Below the pieces are notes generated by a model that saw nothing but the letters and a program-made list of their open reading frames with translations, made no database searches and had not been told where the DNA came from. From Parvibaculum sedimenti (lineage in GTDB: Bacteria; Pseudomonadota; Alphaproteobacteria; Parvibaculales; Parvibaculaceae): a stretch of 64,000 nucleotides of DNA. The DNA lies in contig NZ_WESC01000016.1 of assembly GCF_009184905.1 (NCBI RefSeq), positions 1 through 64,000 on the forward strand, written 5' to 3'. Below are positions 33,407 through 43,815 of this stretch, piece after piece (positions within the stretch are counted from its first letter, which is position 1; every line of letters begins with the position of its first letter). Position numbers and translations under genes: made by a program.

Positions 33407-35092
33407 TTAGTTGCCGCCTTCAAGAAGGCGGCGGGCAATGACCTGGGCCTGAATTTCGGCGGCGCCCTCGAAGATGTTGAGGATGCGCGCGTCGCAGAGG
33501 ACGCGGCTCACCGGATATTCGAGCGCGAAGCCGTTGCCGCCGTGAATCTGCAACGCATTATCGGCCGCCGCCCAGGCAACGCGGGCGCCGAGAAGCTTCG
33601 CCATGCCAGCCTCAAGGTCGCAGCGCCGTCCGCCGTCCTTTTCGCGCGCTGCGTGATAGGTGAGCTGTCGGGCGACGAGGATTTCGACGGCCATCATCAC
33701 GAGCTTTCCCGAGACGCGGGGGAAGTTGAAGATCGGCTTGCCGAACTGGATGCGCTCCTGCGCGTATTTGAGGCCAAGCTCGAGGGCGGCCTGCGCGACG
33801 CCAATGGCGCGGGCGGCCGTCTGGATACGGGCGCTTTCGAAGGTCTGCATCAATTGCTTGAAACCCTGGCCTTCCTCACCGCCGAGGAGGTTCTCGGCCT
33901 TCACCTCGAAATCGTCGAAGCCGATCTCGAATTCCTTCATGCCGCGATAGCCGAGCACGCGGATCTCGCCGCCGGTCATGCCCTTGGCGGGGAAGGGGTT
34001 GGCGTCGTCGCCGCGCGGCTTTTCCGCAAGCAGCATGGACAGGCCCTTGTAGCCCGGTGCATCGCTGGTGCGGCAGAGAAGCGTCATCACATCGGCGCGG
34101 GCGGCATGGGTGATCCAGGTCTTGTTGCCAGTAACGCGATAGACGTCGCCGTCACGTTTGCCGCGTGTCCTGAGGCTCGCGAGGTCGGAGCCGGTATTGG
34201 GCTCGGTGAAGACGGCGGTGGGCAGGATTTCGCCGCTCGCGATCTTCGGGAGCCACTTCGCCTTCTGCTCGGGCGTGCCGCCGCCGAGAATAAGCTCCGC
34301 CGCGATCTCGGAGCGCGTGCCGAGGGAGCCGACGCCGATATAGCCGCGCGAGAGCTCTTCCGAGACCACACACATCGATTCCTTGCCGAGGCCGAGGCCA
34401 CCGAATTCTTCCGGGATCGTCAGGCCGAAGACGCCGAGCTCGGCCATTTTTGCGATGACTTCGAGCGGGATGTATTCGTCCTTCAGGTGCCAGTCATGGG
34501 CGTAAGGCACGACTTCGGCGTCGGCGAAGCGGCGCATCTGGTCGCGAATCTGCTCGTAGGTGTCTTCGAGGCCCGCGTCGCCGAAGCTTGCGGCACCCAC
34601 ATTCTCGGCGATGAGCTTCGCGAGGCGGGCGCGCACTTGCGCGGTGTTGCCCTGTGCGATCAGGGCGCGGACATCGGCGGTGTGGAAGGCTGCATGGTCT
34701 GTGTCTGAAATGCCGAGATCCTGCGGGCGCACGATCTCGCCCTGACTCATCGGAATGCCACCGGAAAGCTGCGAGAGATATTCGCCGAAGGCGACCTGAA
34801 CGATCAGCGCCTCGATTTCGCCGAAGCGGCCTTCCTCCGTCATGCGCGCCGCATAGGCGGCGAGCTGGCGCAGACCCTCGACATAGGTCGCCATCCAGGA
34901 CAGACCGTGCGCGGCGAACTGCTCGCGTTCGATCAGTGCCGCCGAAATCTTGCCGTCGTGGCTCACCTTCAGGGCAACAGCCGCCTTGGCCTTCGCGAGC
35001 AGGGTTTCGGCGCTCGTGGCCGCGCTTGCAGCCAGGGGCAGGAGATTGCCAAGAACAAGCGCTTTGGCGGCGGTTTCGGCGGTGTTTGTCAT
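33407..35092 (-). CDS. mcd: (2S)-methylsuccinyl-CoA dehydrogenase
   Basis: Acyl-CoA dehydrogenase of the ethylmalonyl-CoA pathway that oxidises methylsuccinyl-CoA to mesaconyl-C1-CoA, donating to ETF. The 561-residue length with an approximately 160-residue N-terminal extension (AAKALVLGNLLPLAASAATSAETL..) is the mark of Mcd; ordinary acyl-CoA dehydrogenases are about 380. FAD/acyl sites: TEPNTGSDLASLRT near 305, GFKQLMQTFESARIQTAARAIGVAQAAL near 435, and C-terminal QIHGGNGFALEYPVSRVLCDARILNIFEGAAEIQ. ATG 35092 gives the family N terminus; a TTG at 35128 is less likely. Ccr and Ecm of the same pathway are encoded 3-7 kb away. Confidence 0.92.
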   Translation of the reverse strand: MTNTAETAAKALVLGNLLPLAASAATSAETLLAKAKAAVALKVSHDGKISAALIEREQFAAHGLSWMATYVEGLRQLAAYAARMTEEGRFGEIEALIVQVAFGEYLSQLSGGIPMSQGEIVRPQDLGISDTDHAAFHTADVRALIAQGNTAQVRARLAKLIAENVGAASFGDAGLEDTYEQIRDQMRRFADAEVVPYAHDWHLKDEYIPLEVIAKMAELGVFGLTIPEEFGGLGLGKESMCVVSEELSRGYIGVGSLGTRSEIAAELILGGGTPEQKAKWLPKIASGEILPTAVFTEPNTGSDLASLRTRGKRDGDVYRVTGNKTWITHAARADVMTLLCRTSDAPGYKGLSMLLAEKPRGDDANPFPAKGMTGGEIRVLGYRGMKEFEIGFDDFEVKAENLLGGEEGQGFKQLMQTFESARIQTAARAIGVAQAALELGLKYAQERIQFGKPIFNFPRVSGKLVMMAVEILVARQLTYHAAREKDGGRRCDLEAGMAKLLGARVAWAAADNALQIHGGNGFALEYPVSRVLCDARILNIFEGAAEIQAQVIARRLLEGGN

Positions 35093-35319
35093 GGGGCGGT
35101 ACTCGTAAGGGCTGGCGGGCGGGCTCAAGGGGGGACGGACCTTGTACGAGCGAAGGAGGGGATCGGCTCAGGCGGGCGTCCAAGGGACTATATAGCCCGA
35201 AGCGCCGGACCCGGCCAGCGCATGTGCGGGAGGTTTTCAGGTCATAAAACTATGCTTGGCGCCCGGCGGAAGTTCCGGTCAGACTGTCTCCTTCTGAAAC
35301 ATGGCTGTGGGGGCTATTC

Positions 35320-37651: not shown

Positions 37652-38443
37652 ATGATCCCCCTGGCCGATATTCTCACGCTTGGCTCCGGTACGCTGATCG
37701 GATTGACGCTTGGGCTCATCGGCGGCGGCGGTTCGATTCTCGCCGTACCGCTCCTCGTCTATGTGGTGGGCGTCACCTCGCCCCACGTCGCCATCGGCAC
37801 CAGCGCTATCGCGGTCGCCGCAAATGCGCTGGTCGGCGTCGCGCTTCATGCGCGGGCGCGCTCGGTCAAATGGCCTTGCGCTCTCGTCTTTGCGGGCTCC
37901 GGCGTCATCGGCGCGTTTCTCGGCGCGCGTGCGGGCAAGGCCGTAGGCGGCGAATTCCTGCTTTTCCTCTTCGGCCTCCTCATGATCGCGGTCGGCGTCA
38001 CCATGCTGCTCAGAAAAGGCGCGGGCGGCGATCACGACGTCCGTCTCAATCGGGTATCGGCGCCAGCGCTTCTTCCCTCGCTCACGGGTTATGGGCTCGG
38101 CGTCGGCCTGCTGTCGGGGTTCTTCGGAATCGGTGGCGGCTTCCTGATCGTGCCGGGCCTCATCAACGCGACCAACATGCCGATCATCTTCGCGGTCGGA
38201 TCGTCGCTCGTTTCCGTCGCCGCCTTCGGCCTTGCCACGGCATCGAGCTATGCGCTGGCGGGCCTTGTCGACTGGCATATGGCGGCGCTGCTGCTGGCGG
38301 GCGGTGTGGTCGGCGCGCTGCTCGGCACGACGCTCGCGCGGCGGCTGGCGGCGGAAAAGGCGCTGCTTGCGCGCCTCTTCGCCGTCATCGTGATGCTGGT
38401 GGGTCTTTACGTCAGCGTGCGAGGCCTCGCCGCGCTGCTTTAG
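37652..38443 (+). CDS. TauE/SafE family sulfite/anion exporter
   Basis: A 263-residue polytopic inner-membrane protein with about eight helices and the two TauE/SafE repeats: LGLIGGGGSILAVPLLVYVVGVTSPHVAIGTSAIAVAANALVG near the N terminus and GFFGIGGGFLIVPGLINATNMPIIFAVGSSLVSV in the middle. In this setting it would export sulfite or thiosulfate made by the persulfide dioxygenase and rhodanese. ATG 37652 has GGAGG seven bases upstream. Its stop overlaps the convergent ccr stop by 4 bp. Confidence 0.9.
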   Translation: MIPLADILTLGSGTLIGLTLGLIGGGGSILAVPLLVYVVGVTSPHVAIGTSAIAVAANALVGVALHARARSVKWPCALVFAGSGVIGAFLGARAGKAVGGEFLLFLFGLLMIAVGVTMLLRKGAGGDHDVRLNRVSAPALLPSLTGYGLGVGLLSGFFGIGGGFLIVPGLINATNMPIIFAVGSSLVSVAAFGLATASSYALAGLVDWHMAALLLAGGVVGALLGTTLARRLAAEKALLARLFAVIVMLVGLYVSVRGLAALL

Positions 38444-39735
38444 CTGTTGCCGGCCTCGATCGCGTCCTCATAGGTGCGAAGCCCGGGATGCTTGGCCGAG
38501 ACGAGCACGGCCATGTTGCCGGGCAGATGCTCGTTCTTCCACATCTTCATATGCGCCTTGGGAATGTCTTCCCATGAGAAGACCTCCGAAAGGCCGGGGT
38601 CGATGCGGCGCTCGATGACGAGCTGGTTCGCGGCCGAGGCCTGCTTCAGATGCGCGAAATGCGAGCCCTGAATGCGCTTCTGCCGCATCCAGACGAAACG
38701 TGCGTCGAAGGTGATGTTGAAGCCAGAGGTGCCGGCGCAGAAGACGACCATGCCGCCGCGCTTCGCCACCATGCAGGAGACGGGGAAGGTTGCCTCGCCC
38801 GGATGCTCGAAAACGATGTCCGGATCGATGCCCTTGCCCGTGATGTCCCAGATCGCCTTGCCGAACTTCCGCGCCTCTTTCATGAAGTCGTTGAATTCGG
38901 CGGAGTTCACCTTGGGGAGCTGGCCCCAGCAGTTGAAATCCTTGCGGTTGATGACGCCCCTGGCACCGAGCGACATCACATAGTCGCGCTTGCTCTCGTC
39001 CGAGATGACGCCGATGGCATGGGCGCCCGCGGTCGCGCAGAGCTGCACGGCGAAGGAGCCGAGGCCACCCGATGCACCCCAGACCAGCACGTTCTGGCCG
39101 GGTTCGAGCGTGTGCGGGCGATGTCCGAAAAGCATGCGATAGGCGGTGGCGAGCGTCAGCGTGTAGCAGGCGCTTTCTTCCCAGGTGAGGTGCTTGGGGC
39201 GCGGCATGAGTTGCTGCGACTGCACGCGGGCGAACTGGGCGAAGGAGCCGTCCGGCGTCTCGTAGCCCCAGATACGCTGCGAGGGCGAAAGCATCGGGTC
39301 GCCGCCATTGCACTCCTCGTCGTCATGGTCGTCCTGGTTGCAATGGATGACGACTTCGTCGCCGACCTTCCATCGCGTGACCTTGGAGCCGACCGCATAG
39401 ACGATGCCCGACGCGTCGGAACCGGCGATGTGATAGGGCACCTTGTGAACGTCGAAGACGGAAATGGGGGTGCCAAGCGCGGCCCAGACGCCATTGTAAT
39501 TGACGCCCGCCGCCATCACGAGAACGAGCACGTCATGGCTGTCGAGTTCCCAGGTCGGCACGACTTCCACCTGCATCGCCTGCTCGGGCGGTCCGTGGCG
39601 TTCGCGGCGGATGGTCCATGCGTACATGTTCGCCGGGACATGGCCGAGCGGCGGAATCTCGCCGATCTCGTAGAGATCCTTCTTCGGAAGCGGATTGTCG
39701 CTCACGGCAGCGGCCGTGCTGTCGGTCTTCGCCAT
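38440..39735 (-). CDS. ccr: crotonyl-CoA carboxylase/reductase
   Basis: Key enzyme of the ethylmalonyl-CoA pathway: NADPH-dependent reductive carboxylation of crotonyl-CoA to ethylmalonyl-CoA. The 431-residue MDR-fold protein shows ANMYAWTIRRERHGPPEQAMQVEVVPTWEL, GVNYNGVWAALGTPISVFDVHK, the acidic insert NQDDHDDEECNGGDPMLSPSQRIWGYET and the NADPH loop VWGASGGLGSFAVQL near 228, all typical of Ccr rather than simple enoyl reductases. ATG 39735 has GAGGACAG upstream; the open frame extends further but is unconserved. Transcribed away from the di-iron gene; the 296-bp region between holds a palindromic motif also found before ecm. Confidence 0.96.
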   Translation of the reverse strand: MAKTDSTAAAVSDNPLPKKDLYEIGEIPPLGHVPANMYAWTIRRERHGPPEQAMQVEVVPTWELDSHDVLVLVMAAGVNYNGVWAALGTPISVFDVHKVPYHIAGSDASGIVYAVGSKVTRWKVGDEVVIHCNQDDHDDEECNGGDPMLSPSQRIWGYETPDGSFAQFARVQSQQLMPRPKHLTWEESACYTLTLATAYRMLFGHRPHTLEPGQNVLVWGASGGLGSFAVQLCATAGAHAIGVISDESKRDYVMSLGARGVINRKDFNCWGQLPKVNSAEFNDFMKEARKFGKAIWDITGKGIDPDIVFEHPGEATFPVSCMVAKRGGMVVFCAGTSGFNITFDARFVWMRQKRIQGSHFAHLKQASAANQLVIERRIDPGLSEVFSWEDIPKAHMKMWKNEHLPGNMAVLVSAKHPGLRTYEDAIEAGNS

Positions 39736-39889
39736 ACTCTGTCCTCGCTCATGCCCCCTGGGTCCTTCGCCGACGGCTGACGCCTGGAGGCTGGGCCCAT
39801 GATCCATCCGTCACCCGTCTGCCGCAATGAGAGGCAGCGGGGCGGTTTTGCCCGGATCATTGGCGGATGACGCGGGGGATGCAAGGGCT

Positions 39890-39906
39890 TTTTGCACTGC
39901 AGCAAA
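39890..39906. promoter_or_regulatory. 17-bp palindromic motif, ccr/di-iron intergenic copy
   Basis: TTTTGCACTGCAGCAAA. It is 15 of 17 identical to a site before ecm (41754-41770). The half-sites TTTGC/GCAAA face each other. It lies 155 bp before the ccr start and 126 bp before the di-iron gene. Resembles PhaR-type (TGC-N-GCA) and ScfR/RamB/PccR-type (TTTGCAAA) operators; which regulator binds is unknown. Confidence 0.55.
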
Positions 39907-39990
39907 TAGCGCCGGAAGCCGACGCGGTGCTTCAGGCGGCCCTGTTCTCCCTTTTCGTCGCGTCAGCTTCTCGGATAGCATTCCTTCGTG

Positions 39991-40005
39991 CGGAGTTTAA
40001 CTCCG
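39991..40005. repeat. 15-bp perfect palindrome before the di-iron gene
   Basis: CGGAGTT-T-AACTCCG, seven paired bases around one centre base, 26 bp upstream of the ATG at 40032. Could be an operator or a short leader hairpin; nothing further can be said. Confidence 0.45.
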
Positions 40006-40031
40006 TATTTGGCCTTTGGGAGGAGGACCGG

Positions 40032-41111
40032 ATGAGCTTCAAGGATATGTACGCGATCGCGCTCGATGGCAGCCATTGGGACGTTCCGCAGAATTACGAC
40101 GCAATGTTCAACTGGAATTACGACCCCGAACGCAGCGCGATGATGGGGCTCTACCAGAAGGGCAAGGAGATGCAGTGGGATGCCAAGACCCGCATCGACT
40201 GGACCCAGGAGCTCGACGAGGACAATCCCGAGCAATTGCCCGACGAGATGCTGCCGATCAACGGCATGGCCGCTTTCGAGAAAATGTCGCGCAAGGAGAA
40301 GGCGAATGTCCGGAAGCATTTCCAGGCATGGCAGCTCTCGCAGTTCATGCAGGGCGAGCAGGGCGCGCTGATCTGCACCGCGAAGATCGTGACGCAGGTG
40401 CCGGACATGGACTCGAAGTTCTATGCCTCGACGCAGGTGATCGACGAGGCGCGCCATGTCGAGAGCTACAAGATGCTGCTTTCGAAGTTCAATCTCGTCT
40501 ATCCGATGACGAAGCCGCTGCAGACGCTGATCGAGCAGACGCTGCGCGACAGCCGCTGGGACATGACCTATCTCGGCATGCAGGTGGTGATTGAAGGTCT
40601 TGCGCTCGCGGCCTTCGCGCAGATCCGCGACCACGCGCAGAACCCGCTCGCCGCCTCCGTGAATGCCTATGTCATGCAGGACGAGTCCCGCCATGTCGCC
40701 TTCGGGCGTCTGGCGCTGCGCGACTATTATCCTCAGCTCTCGGAGAAGGAGCGCGACGAGCGCGAGGAATTCCTGCTCGAAGCGAGTTATCTCATGCGCG
40801 ACCGCTTCGACGCCGTCGAGGTCTGGCAGAATCTGGGGCTCGATCCCGTGGAATGCGCGGAGCACATGTATCATTCCGGCTTCATGGCGAAGTTCCGCTC
40901 CTCGCTCTTCCAGCGCATCGTGCCCATTGTGAAAGATGTTGGGCTTTGGGGTTCGCGCATCCGCAAGGGCTATGAGGAAATGGGTGTGATCGACTATGCC
41001 AAGCAGGATGTCGACGCGATGCAGGCGAATGACGATTTCATCGCCCGCGAATTCGATGCGCGGCGCAAGCACATCGAAAGCGTTGCGGCCCGCGCTTCCG
41101 CTGCCGAATAG
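40032..41111 (+). CDS. uncharacterised ferritin-like di-iron protein
   Basis: A 359-residue soluble protein with a complete carboxylate-bridged di-iron ligand set on four helices: Glu109 (FMQGEQGAL), Glu139-x-x-His142 (VIDEARHVESY), Glu188 (VVIEGLALAAF) and Glu218-x-x-His221 (QDESRHVAFG). The spacing E..ExxH..E..ExxH is that of ribonucleotide-reductase-R2-like oxidases and AurF-type oxygenases. I cannot name the reaction. AGGAGGA six bases before ATG 40032 fixes the start. It lies between ccr and ecm and shares the ccr-facing control region, suggesting a role tied to acyl-CoA or lipid metabolism. Confidence 0.82.
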   Translation: MSFKDMYAIALDGSHWDVPQNYDAMFNWNYDPERSAMMGLYQKGKEMQWDAKTRIDWTQELDEDNPEQLPDEMLPINGMAAFEKMSRKEKANVRKHFQAWQLSQFMQGEQGALICTAKIVTQVPDMDSKFYASTQVIDEARHVESYKMLLSKFNLVYPMTKPLQTLIEQTLRDSRWDMTYLGMQVVIEGLALAAFAQIRDHAQNPLAASVNAYVMQDESRHVAFGRLALRDYYPQLSEKERDEREEFLLEASYLMRDRFDAVEVWQNLGLDPVECAEHMYHSGFMAKFRSSLFQRIVPIVKDVGLWGSRIRKGYEEMGVIDYAKQDVDAMQANDDFIAREFDARRKHIESVAARASAAE

Positions 41112-41240
41112 GCTTCACTCTGCGCTGGAACGGCTTGGCCGTTCCAGCGTTTGACATGGGAGGGGGCGAGATTTGCCTTGTTCCGGCCACAGATTGGCGG
41201 GACGCTCCTTCAACGCTCACCCGCAGGGAAGGATTTGCTC

Positions 41241-41705
41241 ATGACCTCCAAATCTCCGACAAGGTTCGTCGCGTTGCTGGCCGCTGCCGCCATCGTCATG
41301 CCGACGCTTGCCTTTGCCGACGATCATCGCCCGCCGCCCGGTCAGGGACAGGGCCAGCCCCAGCATCGCGATATGGAGCGGCGCGATCAGAACAAGCACC
41401 AGAATCGTGACATGCAGCGTCGGCAATCGCGCGACCGGCCAGAATTCCGATATGACGAGTCGCGCTATGCACGCGACTATTACCGCAAGCCCGGCAACCG
41501 CTGGGACGCGCCGCGGGCGCCGCGCGGCTTCGGCTATGGCCACAGGCTGCCGCGCAATTACTGGCACCCCCTGCCGCCCGGCCTTCGCGGCCATTTCCAT
41601 CCCCGCCCCGGCTATGACTACTACATGGTCGGCAACGACATCGTGCTCGTGGCGATCGCGACCGGCATCATTGTGGACATCCTCTACAACGTGAACCGTT
41701 ACTGA
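41241..41705 (+). CDS. RcnB family periplasmic protein
   Basis: A 154-residue protein with a signal peptide (LLAAAAIVMPTLAFA|DD, about residue 26), an Arg/Gln/His/Asp-rich middle, and the RcnB-family end: YGHRLPRNYWHPLPPGLRGHFHPRPGYDYYMVGNDIVLVAIATGIIVDIL. RcnB of E. coli tunes nickel/cobalt export; most homologues are uncharacterised. A cobalt link would suit the B12-dependent mutase next door but is only inference. AAGGA before ATG 41241 supports the start. Followed by a strong terminator. Confidence 0.85.
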   Translation: MTSKSPTRFVALLAAAAIVMPTLAFADDHRPPPGQGQGQPQHRDMERRDQNKHQNRDMQRRQSRDRPEFRYDESRYARDYYRKPGNRWDAPRAPRGFGYGHRLPRNYWHPLPPGLRGHFHPRPGYDYYMVGNDIVLVAIATGIIVDILYNVNRY

Positions 41706-41723
41706 GGCACAGGCGCCATTTTC

Positions 41724-41757
41724 GGGGCCCGGGAGCGATCCCGGGCCCCGTCCTTTT
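41724..41757 (+). terminator. intrinsic terminator after the RcnB-like gene
   Basis: Perfect 11-bp stem GGGGCCCGGGA/TCCCGGGCCCC (41724-41734, 41739-41749) with a GCGA loop, then TCCTTTT. The T-run is shared with the first bases of the ecm-side palindromic motif. Confidence 0.85.
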
Positions 41758-41770
41758 GCGCCGCAGCAAA
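41754..41770. promoter_or_regulatory. 17-bp palindromic motif, ecm copy
   Basis: TTTTGCGCCGCAGCAAA, 50 bp before the ecm ATG and 15 of 17 identical to the copy at 39890-39906. Directly abuts the RcnB terminator. No second copy was seen near mcd, etfBA or the 3-hydroxybutyryl-CoA dehydrogenase gene. Confidence 0.55.
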
Positions 41771-41820
41771 GCCTGTGATAAGGCGTTTCAAGCACAGAAC
41801 GCAGCGTAAAGGCGAAGAAC

Positions 41821-43815
41821 ATGGCGAAGGACGTAGGCGGCAAGCCGGCCCCGAAGCAGGACCAGCCCTGGATTTTCCGTACCTATGCGGGCCATTCGAC
41901 CGCCTCGGCTTCGAACGAGCTTTACCGCACCAATCTGGCCCGCGGGCAGACGGGCCTTTCCGTCGCCTTCGATCTGCCCACCCAGACCGGCTACGACAGC
42001 GACCATGTGCTCGCCAAGGGCGAGGTCGGCAAGGTCGGTGTGCCGATCAGCCATATCGGCGACATGCGGGATCTCTTCCACGACCTTCCGCTCGACCAGA
42101 TGAATACGTCGATGACCATCAATGCGACGGCGGCCTGGCTGCTGGCGCTTTACATCGCCGTGGCCGACGAGCAGGGGGCCGACCGCGCCAAGCTTCAAGG
42201 CACGGTGCAGAACGACATCATCAAGGAATATCTCTCGCGTGGCACGTATGTGTTCCCGCCCGAACCCTCGATGCGCCTCATCACGGACATCGTCTCCTAC
42301 ACCTATACGCAGGTGCCGAAGTGGAACCCCACCAACGTCTGCTCCTACCATCTGCAGGAAGCAGGTGCGACGCCGGTGCAGGAGCTTGCCTTCGCGCTCG
42401 CCAATGCCATTGCGCTGCTCGACCATGTGAAGGCGAGCGGGCAGGTGCCGCCGTCCGAGTTTCCGCAGGTCGTGGGCCGTATCTCCTTCTTCGTCAATGC
42501 GGGCGTGCGCTTCATCACCGAAATCGCGAAGATGCGAGCCTTCGTCGATCTCTGGGACGAAATTTGCCGTGAGCGCTATGGCGTCACCGACGAGAAGCTG
42601 CGCCGCTTCCGCTATGGCGTGCAGGTGAATTCGCTCGGCCTCACCGAGCAGCAGCCGGAAAACAACGTCTATCGCATCCTGATCGAGATGCTGGCCGTGA
42701 CGCTGTCGAAAAAGGCCCGCGCCCGCGCCGTGCAATTGCCCGCCTGGAACGAGGCGCTCGGCCTGCCGCGCCCCTGGGACCAGCAATGGTCGCTGCGCGC
42801 GCAGCAGATTCTCGCTTATGAGACGGACCTTCTTCAGTATCAGGACATTTTCGACGGCAGCCATGTCATGGACGCCAAGGTCGAGGCGCTGAAGGCGGAA
42901 GCGCGCGAGGAACTGAAGCGCATCGAAGACATGGGTGGCGCTATCGCGGCCATCGAAACCGCCTATATGAAGGAACAGCTCGTCGCCTCGAACTCGGCGC
43001 GGCTTGCCGCCATCGAGGCGGGCGAGCAGAAGGTCATCGGCGTCAACGCCTTTGTCGAGACGGCGCCGTCTCCGCTCGCGACCGGTGAAGGCTCGATCCT
43101 CACCGTCTCGCATGATGTCGAGGAGCACCAGATCGCCCGGCTCAAGGAATGGCGCCGCATGCGCGACAATGAGGCCGTGGAAGCTGCGCTCGCCGAACTT
43201 CGCCGGGCGGCGAAGGAAGGCCGCAACATCATGGAGCCCTCGATTGCCTGCGCGAAGGCCGGCGTCACCACGGGCGAATGGGGCACGGCGCTCCGCTCGA
43301 TCTTCGGCGAATACCGCGCGCCGACGGGCGTTTCCCGCGCCGTGCGCAACGACGCGCCGGAACTCGACCATGTGCGTGGCATGGTCGATGCTGTTTCGAA
43401 GAAGCTCGGCCGCCGCCTCAAGTTTCTTGTCGGCAAGCCAGGCCTCGACGGTCATTCGAATGGCGCCGAGCAGATCGCCGTCCGCGCACGCGACTGCGGC
43501 ATGGATGTCGTCTATGACGGCATCCGCCTCACGCCCGCTGAAATCGTGGAAGCCGCCCGGGAGGGCCGCGTCCATGTGCTCGGCCTGTCGATCCTGTCGG
43601 GCAGCCACATTCCGCTCGTCACTGAAGTCATGGCGCGGCTGAAGGGGGAGGGGATCAATATCCCCGTCGTCGTCGGCGGTATCATTCCGCAAGACGATGC
43701 CGAAAAGCTCCGCGCCGCGGGCGTCGCCGCCGTTTACACGCCCAAGGACTTCCAGATCACAGACATCATGGCCGATGTCGTGCAGCTGGTGGACGCGGAC
43801 GCCGACGCGGCGTAG
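41821..43815 (+). CDS. ecm: ethylmalonyl-CoA mutase (AdoCbl-dependent)
   Basis: Converts ethylmalonyl-CoA to methylsuccinyl-CoA. The 664-residue protein joins the mutase TIM barrel (YRTNLARGQTGLSVAFDLPTQTGYDSDH near 35-62, DQMNTSMTINATAAWLLALY near 93-112, PSMRLITDIVSYT near 150) and a C-terminal B12 domain with the base-off motif GLDGHSNGAEQ (Asp543, His545). Size and the contiguous ccr neighbourhood identify Ecm rather than methylmalonyl-CoA mutase (about 710) or isobutyryl-CoA mutase. Cofactor would come from the PduO gene. AAAGGCGAAG precedes ATG 41821. Confidence 0.95.
   Translation: MAKDVGGKPAPKQDQPWIFRTYAGHSTASASNELYRTNLARGQTGLSVAFDLPTQTGYDSDHVLAKGEVGKVGVPISHIGDMRDLFHDLPLDQMNTSMTINATAAWLLALYIAVADEQGADRAKLQGTVQNDIIKEYLSRGTYVFPPEPSMRLITDIVSYTYTQVPKWNPTNVCSYHLQEAGATPVQELAFALANAIALLDHVKASGQVPPSEFPQVVGRISFFVNAGVRFITEIAKMRAFVDLWDEICRERYGVTDEKLRRFRYGVQVNSLGLTEQQPENNVYRILIEMLAVTLSKKARARAVQLPAWNEALGLPRPWDQQWSLRAQQILAYETDLLQYQDIFDGSHVMDAKVEALKAEAREELKRIEDMGGAIAAIETAYMKEQLVASNSARLAAIEAGEQKVIGVNAFVETAPSPLATGEGSILTVSHDVEEHQIARLKEWRRMRDNEAVEAALAELRRAAKEGRNIMEPSIACAKAGVTTGEWGTALRSIFGEYRAPTGVSRAVRNDAPELDHVRGMVDAVSKKLGRRLKFLVGKPGLDGHSNGAEQIAVRARDCGMDVVYDGIRLTPAEIVEAAREGRVHVLGLSILSGSHIPLVTEVMARLKGEGINIPVVVGGIIPQDDAEKLRAAGVAAVYTPKDFQITDIMADVVQLVDADADAA

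Follow-up and report, generated by a model that had tools for sequence, protein, structure and literature searches.

Which regulator, if any, recognises both of the near-identical 17-bp palindromes that precede ccr and ecm, two genes of the ethylmalonyl-CoA pathway, was investigated in a 64-kb stretch of Parvibaculum sedimenti DNA (the window). A preliminary description of this DNA had proposed a pathway operator, with PhaR or a regulator of the ScfR group (RamB, PccR) as candidates. PhaR (AniA) is a regulator that binds to PHB granules.

Two palindromes in the ccr and ecm control regions

Site 1, TTTTGCACTGCAGCAAA, is located at 39890-39906 and site 2, TTTTGCGCCGCAGCAAA, at 41754-41770. The two are identical at 15 of 17 positions and both have facing TTTGC/GCAAA ends, and in positions, agreement and ends the preliminary description was borne out. 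In the genome of 3,701,047 bases the exact sequence TTTTGCNNNGCAGCAAA is found only at site 1 and site 2. Site 1 lies 154 bp upstream of ccr and 125 bp upstream of a di-iron gene, and site 2 lies 50 bp upstream of ecm (Table 1).

Table 1. Sites, genes and elements around the two palindromes (positions in the window).
Feature	Position	Strand	Details
Operator 1, predicted PhaR-type palindrome	39887..39907		between ccr and the di-iron gene; core TGCACTGCA at 39893-39901; top matrix match, 23.5
Operator 2, predicted PhaR-type palindrome before ecm	41751..41771		core TGCGCCGCA at 41757-41765; second matrix match, 16.5
ccr, crotonyl-CoA carboxylase/reductase	38440..39735	-	TIGR01751 equivalog, 622 bits against a cut-off of 378.55
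AurF-like di-iron gene, transcribed divergently from ccr	40032..41111	+	PF11583, 63.3 bits
ecm, presumed ethylmalonyl-CoA mutase (a B12-dependent acyl-CoA mutase)	41821..43815	+	PF01642, PF02310
Likely ccr promoter	39856..39884	-	TTGCAT (39884-39879), 17-base spacer, AATGAT (39861-39856); 2 bases from operator 1
Likely ecm promoter	41754..41782	+	TTTTGC (41754-41759), 17-base spacer, GATAAG (41777-41782)
Terminator-like hairpin of upstream RcnB-like gene	41723..41750	+	12-pair stem; T tail overlaps operator 2

The solved relatives of the ecm product are methylmalonyl-CoA and related mutases, and we take the product to be Ecm from its ccr neighbourhood and its single-chain size. The gene at 33407-35128 is presumed to be mcd from its acyl-CoA dehydrogenase matches and from the N-terminal extension that Mcd has. 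By eye, the likely ccr promoter block is conserved in the aligned upstream regions of relatives and AAAGCCTGTGATAAT at the ecm promoter, present in the window as AAAGCCTGTGATAAG, is conserved in many of them. Operator 2 overlies the upstream half of the likely ecm promoter. A scan of 39650-41900 with the sigma-70 consensus found no promoter, picking up neither the ccr nor the ecm candidate.

Between the di-iron gene and ecm, 41241-41705 encodes an RcnB/CigR-like small protein (25.7 bits against a Pfam cut-off of 25.9). A second palindrome, CGGAGTTTAACTCCG, is located at 39991-40005 directly before the di-iron gene and looks like a separate operator for that gene. The sequence CGKAGNNTAACTCCG was found in 24 of the 368 fetched loci, every one a ccr/di-iron region, from 11 genomes.

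A pattern derived from the pair was found, with at most two mismatches, at 22 places in the genome against 24 for the reversed control pattern, and with at most three mismatches at 5 places in the window against a shuffle mean of 4.55. With 22 places against 24, the pair alone therefore defines no enriched genome-wide motif, and the genome scan from the two sites alone, which had been put forward as a check and a means of refutation, would have misled. As judged from sequence, it is the comparison with the PhaR matrix and with relatives described below, not the pair pattern, that raises the two sites above chance.

Match to published PhaR sites

The PhaR motif of S. meliloti is given as WNWD2NYGCRNYGCRNH2WNW, together with a site table with EMSA for each promoter (Lagares et al. 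2025, PMC12542648), and the B. diazoefficiens consensus as TGCRNYGCASMA, from footprints and alignment (PMC6201568). Both sites fit TGCRNYGCASMA at 12 of 12 positions, and they are its sole matches in the window, where 1.0 would be expected by chance. In the AT-rich arms (WNWDDN...NHHWNW) operator 1 is off at one outermost position and operator 2 at two outer W, while the inner arm fits.

A symmetrised PhaR matrix was made from 25 S. meliloti sites in 23 promoter regions scored as bound. Throughout the 64-kb window it ranked site 1 first (23.5) and site 2 second (16.5), followed by a match of 12.5. Among 300 Markov sequences, each 64 kb long, the score of 23.5 was never reached, the best match was at least 16.5 in 28 and the second-best was at least 16.5 in 3. 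With 500 permuted matrices there was no case in which both sites attained 16.5. Both palindromes are very probably docking sites for PhaR.

Conservation before ccr, ecm and mcd in relatives

Upstream regions of ccr were taken from 35 related genomes, in 30 of which the ecm upstream region was also usable, and the window was added to each set. PhaR-matrix sites scoring at least 14.5, a threshold chosen after the scores were seen, were found in 33 of 36 ccr and 25 of 31 ecm sequences, and at a score of at least 10 the numbers were 33 and 26. With 300 column-permuted matrices at most 4 sequences reached 14.5 for either gene. In 22 sequences, the window included, more than 0.9 kb separates the starts of the ccr and ecm matches, and 18 of these 22 have a site of at least 14.5 at each gene. 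The motif recurring in relatives reads TTTTGC, followed mostly by R-S-Y and next by GCA with an arm near GCAAA, and is often found near -67 before ecm.

The mcd gene served as a negative control from inside the pathway. None of its 30 upstream regions reached 14.5 and two reached 10 with the PhaR matrix; the earlier remark that no copy precedes mcd, which suggested split control, thus holds. Two genomes (G030, G035) have PhaR and no sites. In two others (G005, G014), whose assemblies are 71% and 91% complete, the ccr site is present and no PhaR was found.

PhaR and PhaR-like sites elsewhere in the genome

A PhaR gene is present elsewhere in the genome (G000:C12, L089:6351-6977), and its product matches PF07879/PF05233 and passes the TIGR01848 equivalog cut-off. 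Two PhaR-like sites (28.1 and 25.7) precede the only Phasin_2 gene detected. Within the 20-kb region of phaR, the top two matrix matches (15.5 and 14.3) lie between phaA and phaR, upstream of each of them, and within an over-long called phaA frame in which the thiolase domain starts only at residue 68.

Further intergenic sites of at least 16 were found at a nuoA-like gene (17.9), a sugar transferase gene (20.1) and an argininosuccinate synthase/DsbA-like pair (16.2). An SLT-domain gene has two such sites (18.9 and 17.9), and one more (19.4) is located in L279, at a stretch without annotation. A site of 16.9 lies between divergent citrate synthase genes, one of them with a helix-turn-helix domain (L276:1498-1518, G000:C23). 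A site of 24.6 precedes a 69-residue ORF with no Pfam match (L286:1521-1541, G000:C40:194820-194840), a candidate for a small PhaR-controlled protein. Sites of 19.3 and 16.4 are located in the gap that separates a TetR-type gene from a 70-residue ORF for which NCBIfam gave no match (L090:10510-10619, G000:C12:295509-295618). Other strong matrix matches fall within called genes. This genome list was drawn from places given by pattern searches and is incomplete.

Two patterns were tried as regulon patterns and rejected. TTTGCRNYGCAR occurred at 19 places in the genome against 13 for its control, and 16 of the 19 were within called genes, site 1 being counted among these 16 because the gene caller over-extended the di-iron frame upstream. 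TTNYGCRNYGCRNMA occurred at 46 places against 22, palindromic places being counted on both strands and the reversed control losing CpG context. Strong matrix matches within called genes, such as those in L265 (21.6) and L021 (20.8), are among its places, and the TTNYGCRNYGCRNMA list is therefore not a clean regulon.

Breadth in Alphaproteobacteria

Among 80 named alphaproteobacterial ecm loci, a non-random set being the best 80 of 593 confirmed and including at least two (L171, L172) from genomes of the first set, 54 reached 10 and 35 reached 14.5. The other 26 of these best 80 of 593 scored below 10, with Methylocystis and Methylobrevis below 2 and Xanthobacter at 3 to 4. None of 320 control stretches reached 10; these are all coding, and the permuted matrices and mcd are fairer controls. 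Many Rhodobacterales in the same best 80 of 593 have a site version ending GCAGCGAAT.

The ecm upstream regions of the Rhodobacterales within L180-L249 show a form of the site peculiar to this lineage, in which CCGCRNYGCAGCGAAT is common; its place is nearly fixed, about 70-90 bp before ecm. The Rhodobacterales version has a low S. meliloti matrix score despite its clear conservation.

A class sample of 290 genomes, drawn with a completeness of at least 95% requested, was found to contain Ecm in 86, PhaR in 184 and ScfR in 104. Ecm was accompanied by PhaR in 84 of 86 genomes, against 100 of the 204 genomes without Ecm (Fisher p 2.7e-18, ignoring kinship and genome size), and by ScfR in 36 of 86.

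With one genome per genus, the ecm site was present in 44 of 50 genera at a score of at least 10 (one, G144, only by rounding to one decimal) and in 35 at a score of at least 14.5, the genera being counted without a tree and not independent events. With 300 permuted matrices at most 4 reached 10 and 2 reached 14.5. The 50 genera come from 56 with Ecm, the omitted six (g1, g3, g5, g8, g9, g26) having already been sources of sequences in the first set. PhaR is present in all 44 genomes with the ecm site. Conversely, the site was found in 44 of the 48 sampled genomes with PhaR, scores below 10 being obtained for G104, G157, G218 (9.8) and G287, and in neither of the two without PhaR (G061, 5.5; G143, -1.4). 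No site was found in G044 either, a genome without PhaR from the same family as G061. The earlier proposal of a pathway operator with PhaR as candidate is supported by an independent PhaR matrix, by the genome's own phasin and phaA/phaR sites and by the co-occurrence of Ecm and PhaR.

Proposed mechanism and alternatives

The analysis shows what the sites are by sequence, how far they are conserved and that they co-occur with PhaR, and we infer binding in the organism, repression over activation and titration by PHB. In this reading, to which we assign a probability of roughly 80%, both palindromes are predicted PhaR (AniA) operators, with repression by free PhaR and derepression of ccr and ecm when PHB titrates it. 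Free PhaR would bind both sites. It would repress ecm from operator 2, over the upstream half of the promoter, and ccr from operator 1, which abuts the likely -35; the divergent di-iron gene may be repressed as well. A surplus of acetyl-CoA and hydroxybutyryl-CoA would lead to PHB, whose granules would pull PhaR off, and its withdrawal would derepress both the mutase and the enzyme of the first committed step in the ethylmalonyl-CoA pathway. The mcd gene would stay outside PhaR control.

Assuming a start 7 nt after each -10, the site centres lie near -48 for ccr and near -28 for ecm. Sites in S. meliloti are reported at 47 (phaP1, phaP2), 39 (phaZ) and 14 (SMa1961) from the start, in genes treated as PhaR-repressed, and for phaZ the repression rests on EMSA and promoter assays (PMC12542648). 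The site positions resemble those of these PhaR-repressed genes, and repression relieved by PHB titration therefore leads for both promoters.

The main alternative to repression is activation at ccr. PhaR would then bind both sites, activate ccr and repress ecm, or have an effect that varies with growth state, and we consider this unlikely. Operator 1 near -48 lies upstream of the likely ccr -35, where an activator could act, and motif-bearing genes activated by PhaR are described both in S. meliloti, where seven are in PhaR-activated modules (PMC12542648), and in B. diazoefficiens (PMC6201568). The S. meliloti phasin genes with sites at 47 from the start are however repressed, and the motif is enriched there in the repressed module 1 (PMC12542648).

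Binding of the palindromes by a TetR-type regulator such as CcrR is very unlikely. CcrR is a TetR protein described as activating a gene of the ethylmalonyl-CoA pathway in Methylobacterium extorquens, and a TetR gene adjoins the two PhaR-like sites at G000:C12:295509-295618. Yet similar sites are found before phasin genes and in the phaA-phaR regions of these genomes, as PhaR would predict.

Still less probable is an ScfR-family regulator of the RamB/PccR type, sensing CoA thioesters and binding both palindromes. The genome encodes one ScfR-domain protein, ScfR proteins govern acetate and propionate assimilation genes, and the TTTGC/GCAAA ends may resemble ScfR boxes. RamB is reported to control acetyl-CoA assimilation in P. 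denitrificans, an alphaproteobacterium with the ethylmalonyl-CoA pathway, but it depends on a RamB class 2 site, a pair of nearly identical boxes with a spacing of 18 bp, and acts before ms, the boxes being upstream of the glyoxylate-cycle operon, and expression patterns in Paracoccus are described as unchanged after deletion of Pden_4472 or Pden_1350 (PMC10370305). Here one palindrome was found per promoter, the next matches being -3.0 and 1.7 as scored with the PhaR and not an ScfR matrix. Many genomes with the site have no ScfR-domain protein, this domain (PF09856) being absent from 26 of the 44 sampled genomes with the ecm site. The earlier suggestion of RamB, PccR or another ScfR protein is left unsupported by the paired RamB boxes and by these 26 genomes, and PhaR is favoured over ScfR as the probable regulator of these sites.

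That the resemblance arose by chance and from the terminator T tail at site 2 is almost certainly wrong: the Ts of site 2 come after the hairpin, the loose pair pattern is unenriched in the genome and one occurrence of TGCRNYGCASMA is expected in the window, but the sites of both promoters are conserved in relatives and across the class with permuted-matrix and mcd controls negative, and the conservation in relatives therefore already contradicts this explanation.

Under repression by PhaR relieved by PHB titration, a further input is likely. Starved Paracoccus is reported to form PHB within 30 min when refed on succinate (PMC8353029), and Ccr-mCherry is reported as undetected during succinate growth (PMC10370305). 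With PHB formed on succinate and no Ccr-mCherry, although the conditions differ, simple titration may therefore not suffice.

Relation to known systems and implications

The S. meliloti PhaR/AniA regulon resembles the present case in its palindrome YGCRNYGCR with AT-rich arms and in phasin genes with two sites. Its published list includes citrate synthase (gltA), nuoA1 and exopolysaccharide genes, and PhaR-like sites lie beside such genes here too (PMC12542648). It differs in that the word ethylmalonyl does not occur in the main text (PMC12542648), whereas here sites are found at ccr and ecm. Likewise, the B. diazoefficiens consensus is fitted exactly by both sites (PMC6201568), whereas ethylmalonyl and crotonyl-CoA are absent from the main texts on that system (PMC6201568, PMC10888616). 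M. extorquens CcrR, like the regulator proposed here, is described as regulating a gene of the ethylmalonyl-CoA pathway, and differs in being a TetR-family activator. We found neither ccr nor ecm named as a target of PhaR in the open-access literature searched, and the main text of a review on PHA regulation from 2021 does not mention ethylmalonyl. The regulator and its site are already known, and what is apparently new is ccr and ecm as predicted targets. The class-wide reach of the PhaR sites is apparently new as well, if PhaR in fact binds.

The mechanism that upregulates the ethylmalonyl-CoA pathway in Paracoccus has been called "enigmatic" (Kremer et al. 2023, PMC10370305), and in Methylobacterium ecm has been described as a point at which the pathway is controlled. 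By its presence upstream of ecm in 44 of the 50 genera sampled, the predicted PhaR site points to a candidate regulator and makes induction of the pathway testable. We give even odds to the broader proposal that the missing inducer of this pathway, throughout the Alphaproteobacteria, is the titration of PhaR by PHB, in an old circuit whose granules would gauge surplus acetyl-CoA. If true, PHB, made from the same hydroxybutyryl-CoA pool, would switch on the first committed enzyme and the mutase, and one switch would join PHB storage to a pathway that competes with it for precursors, each of them being of interest to biotechnology.
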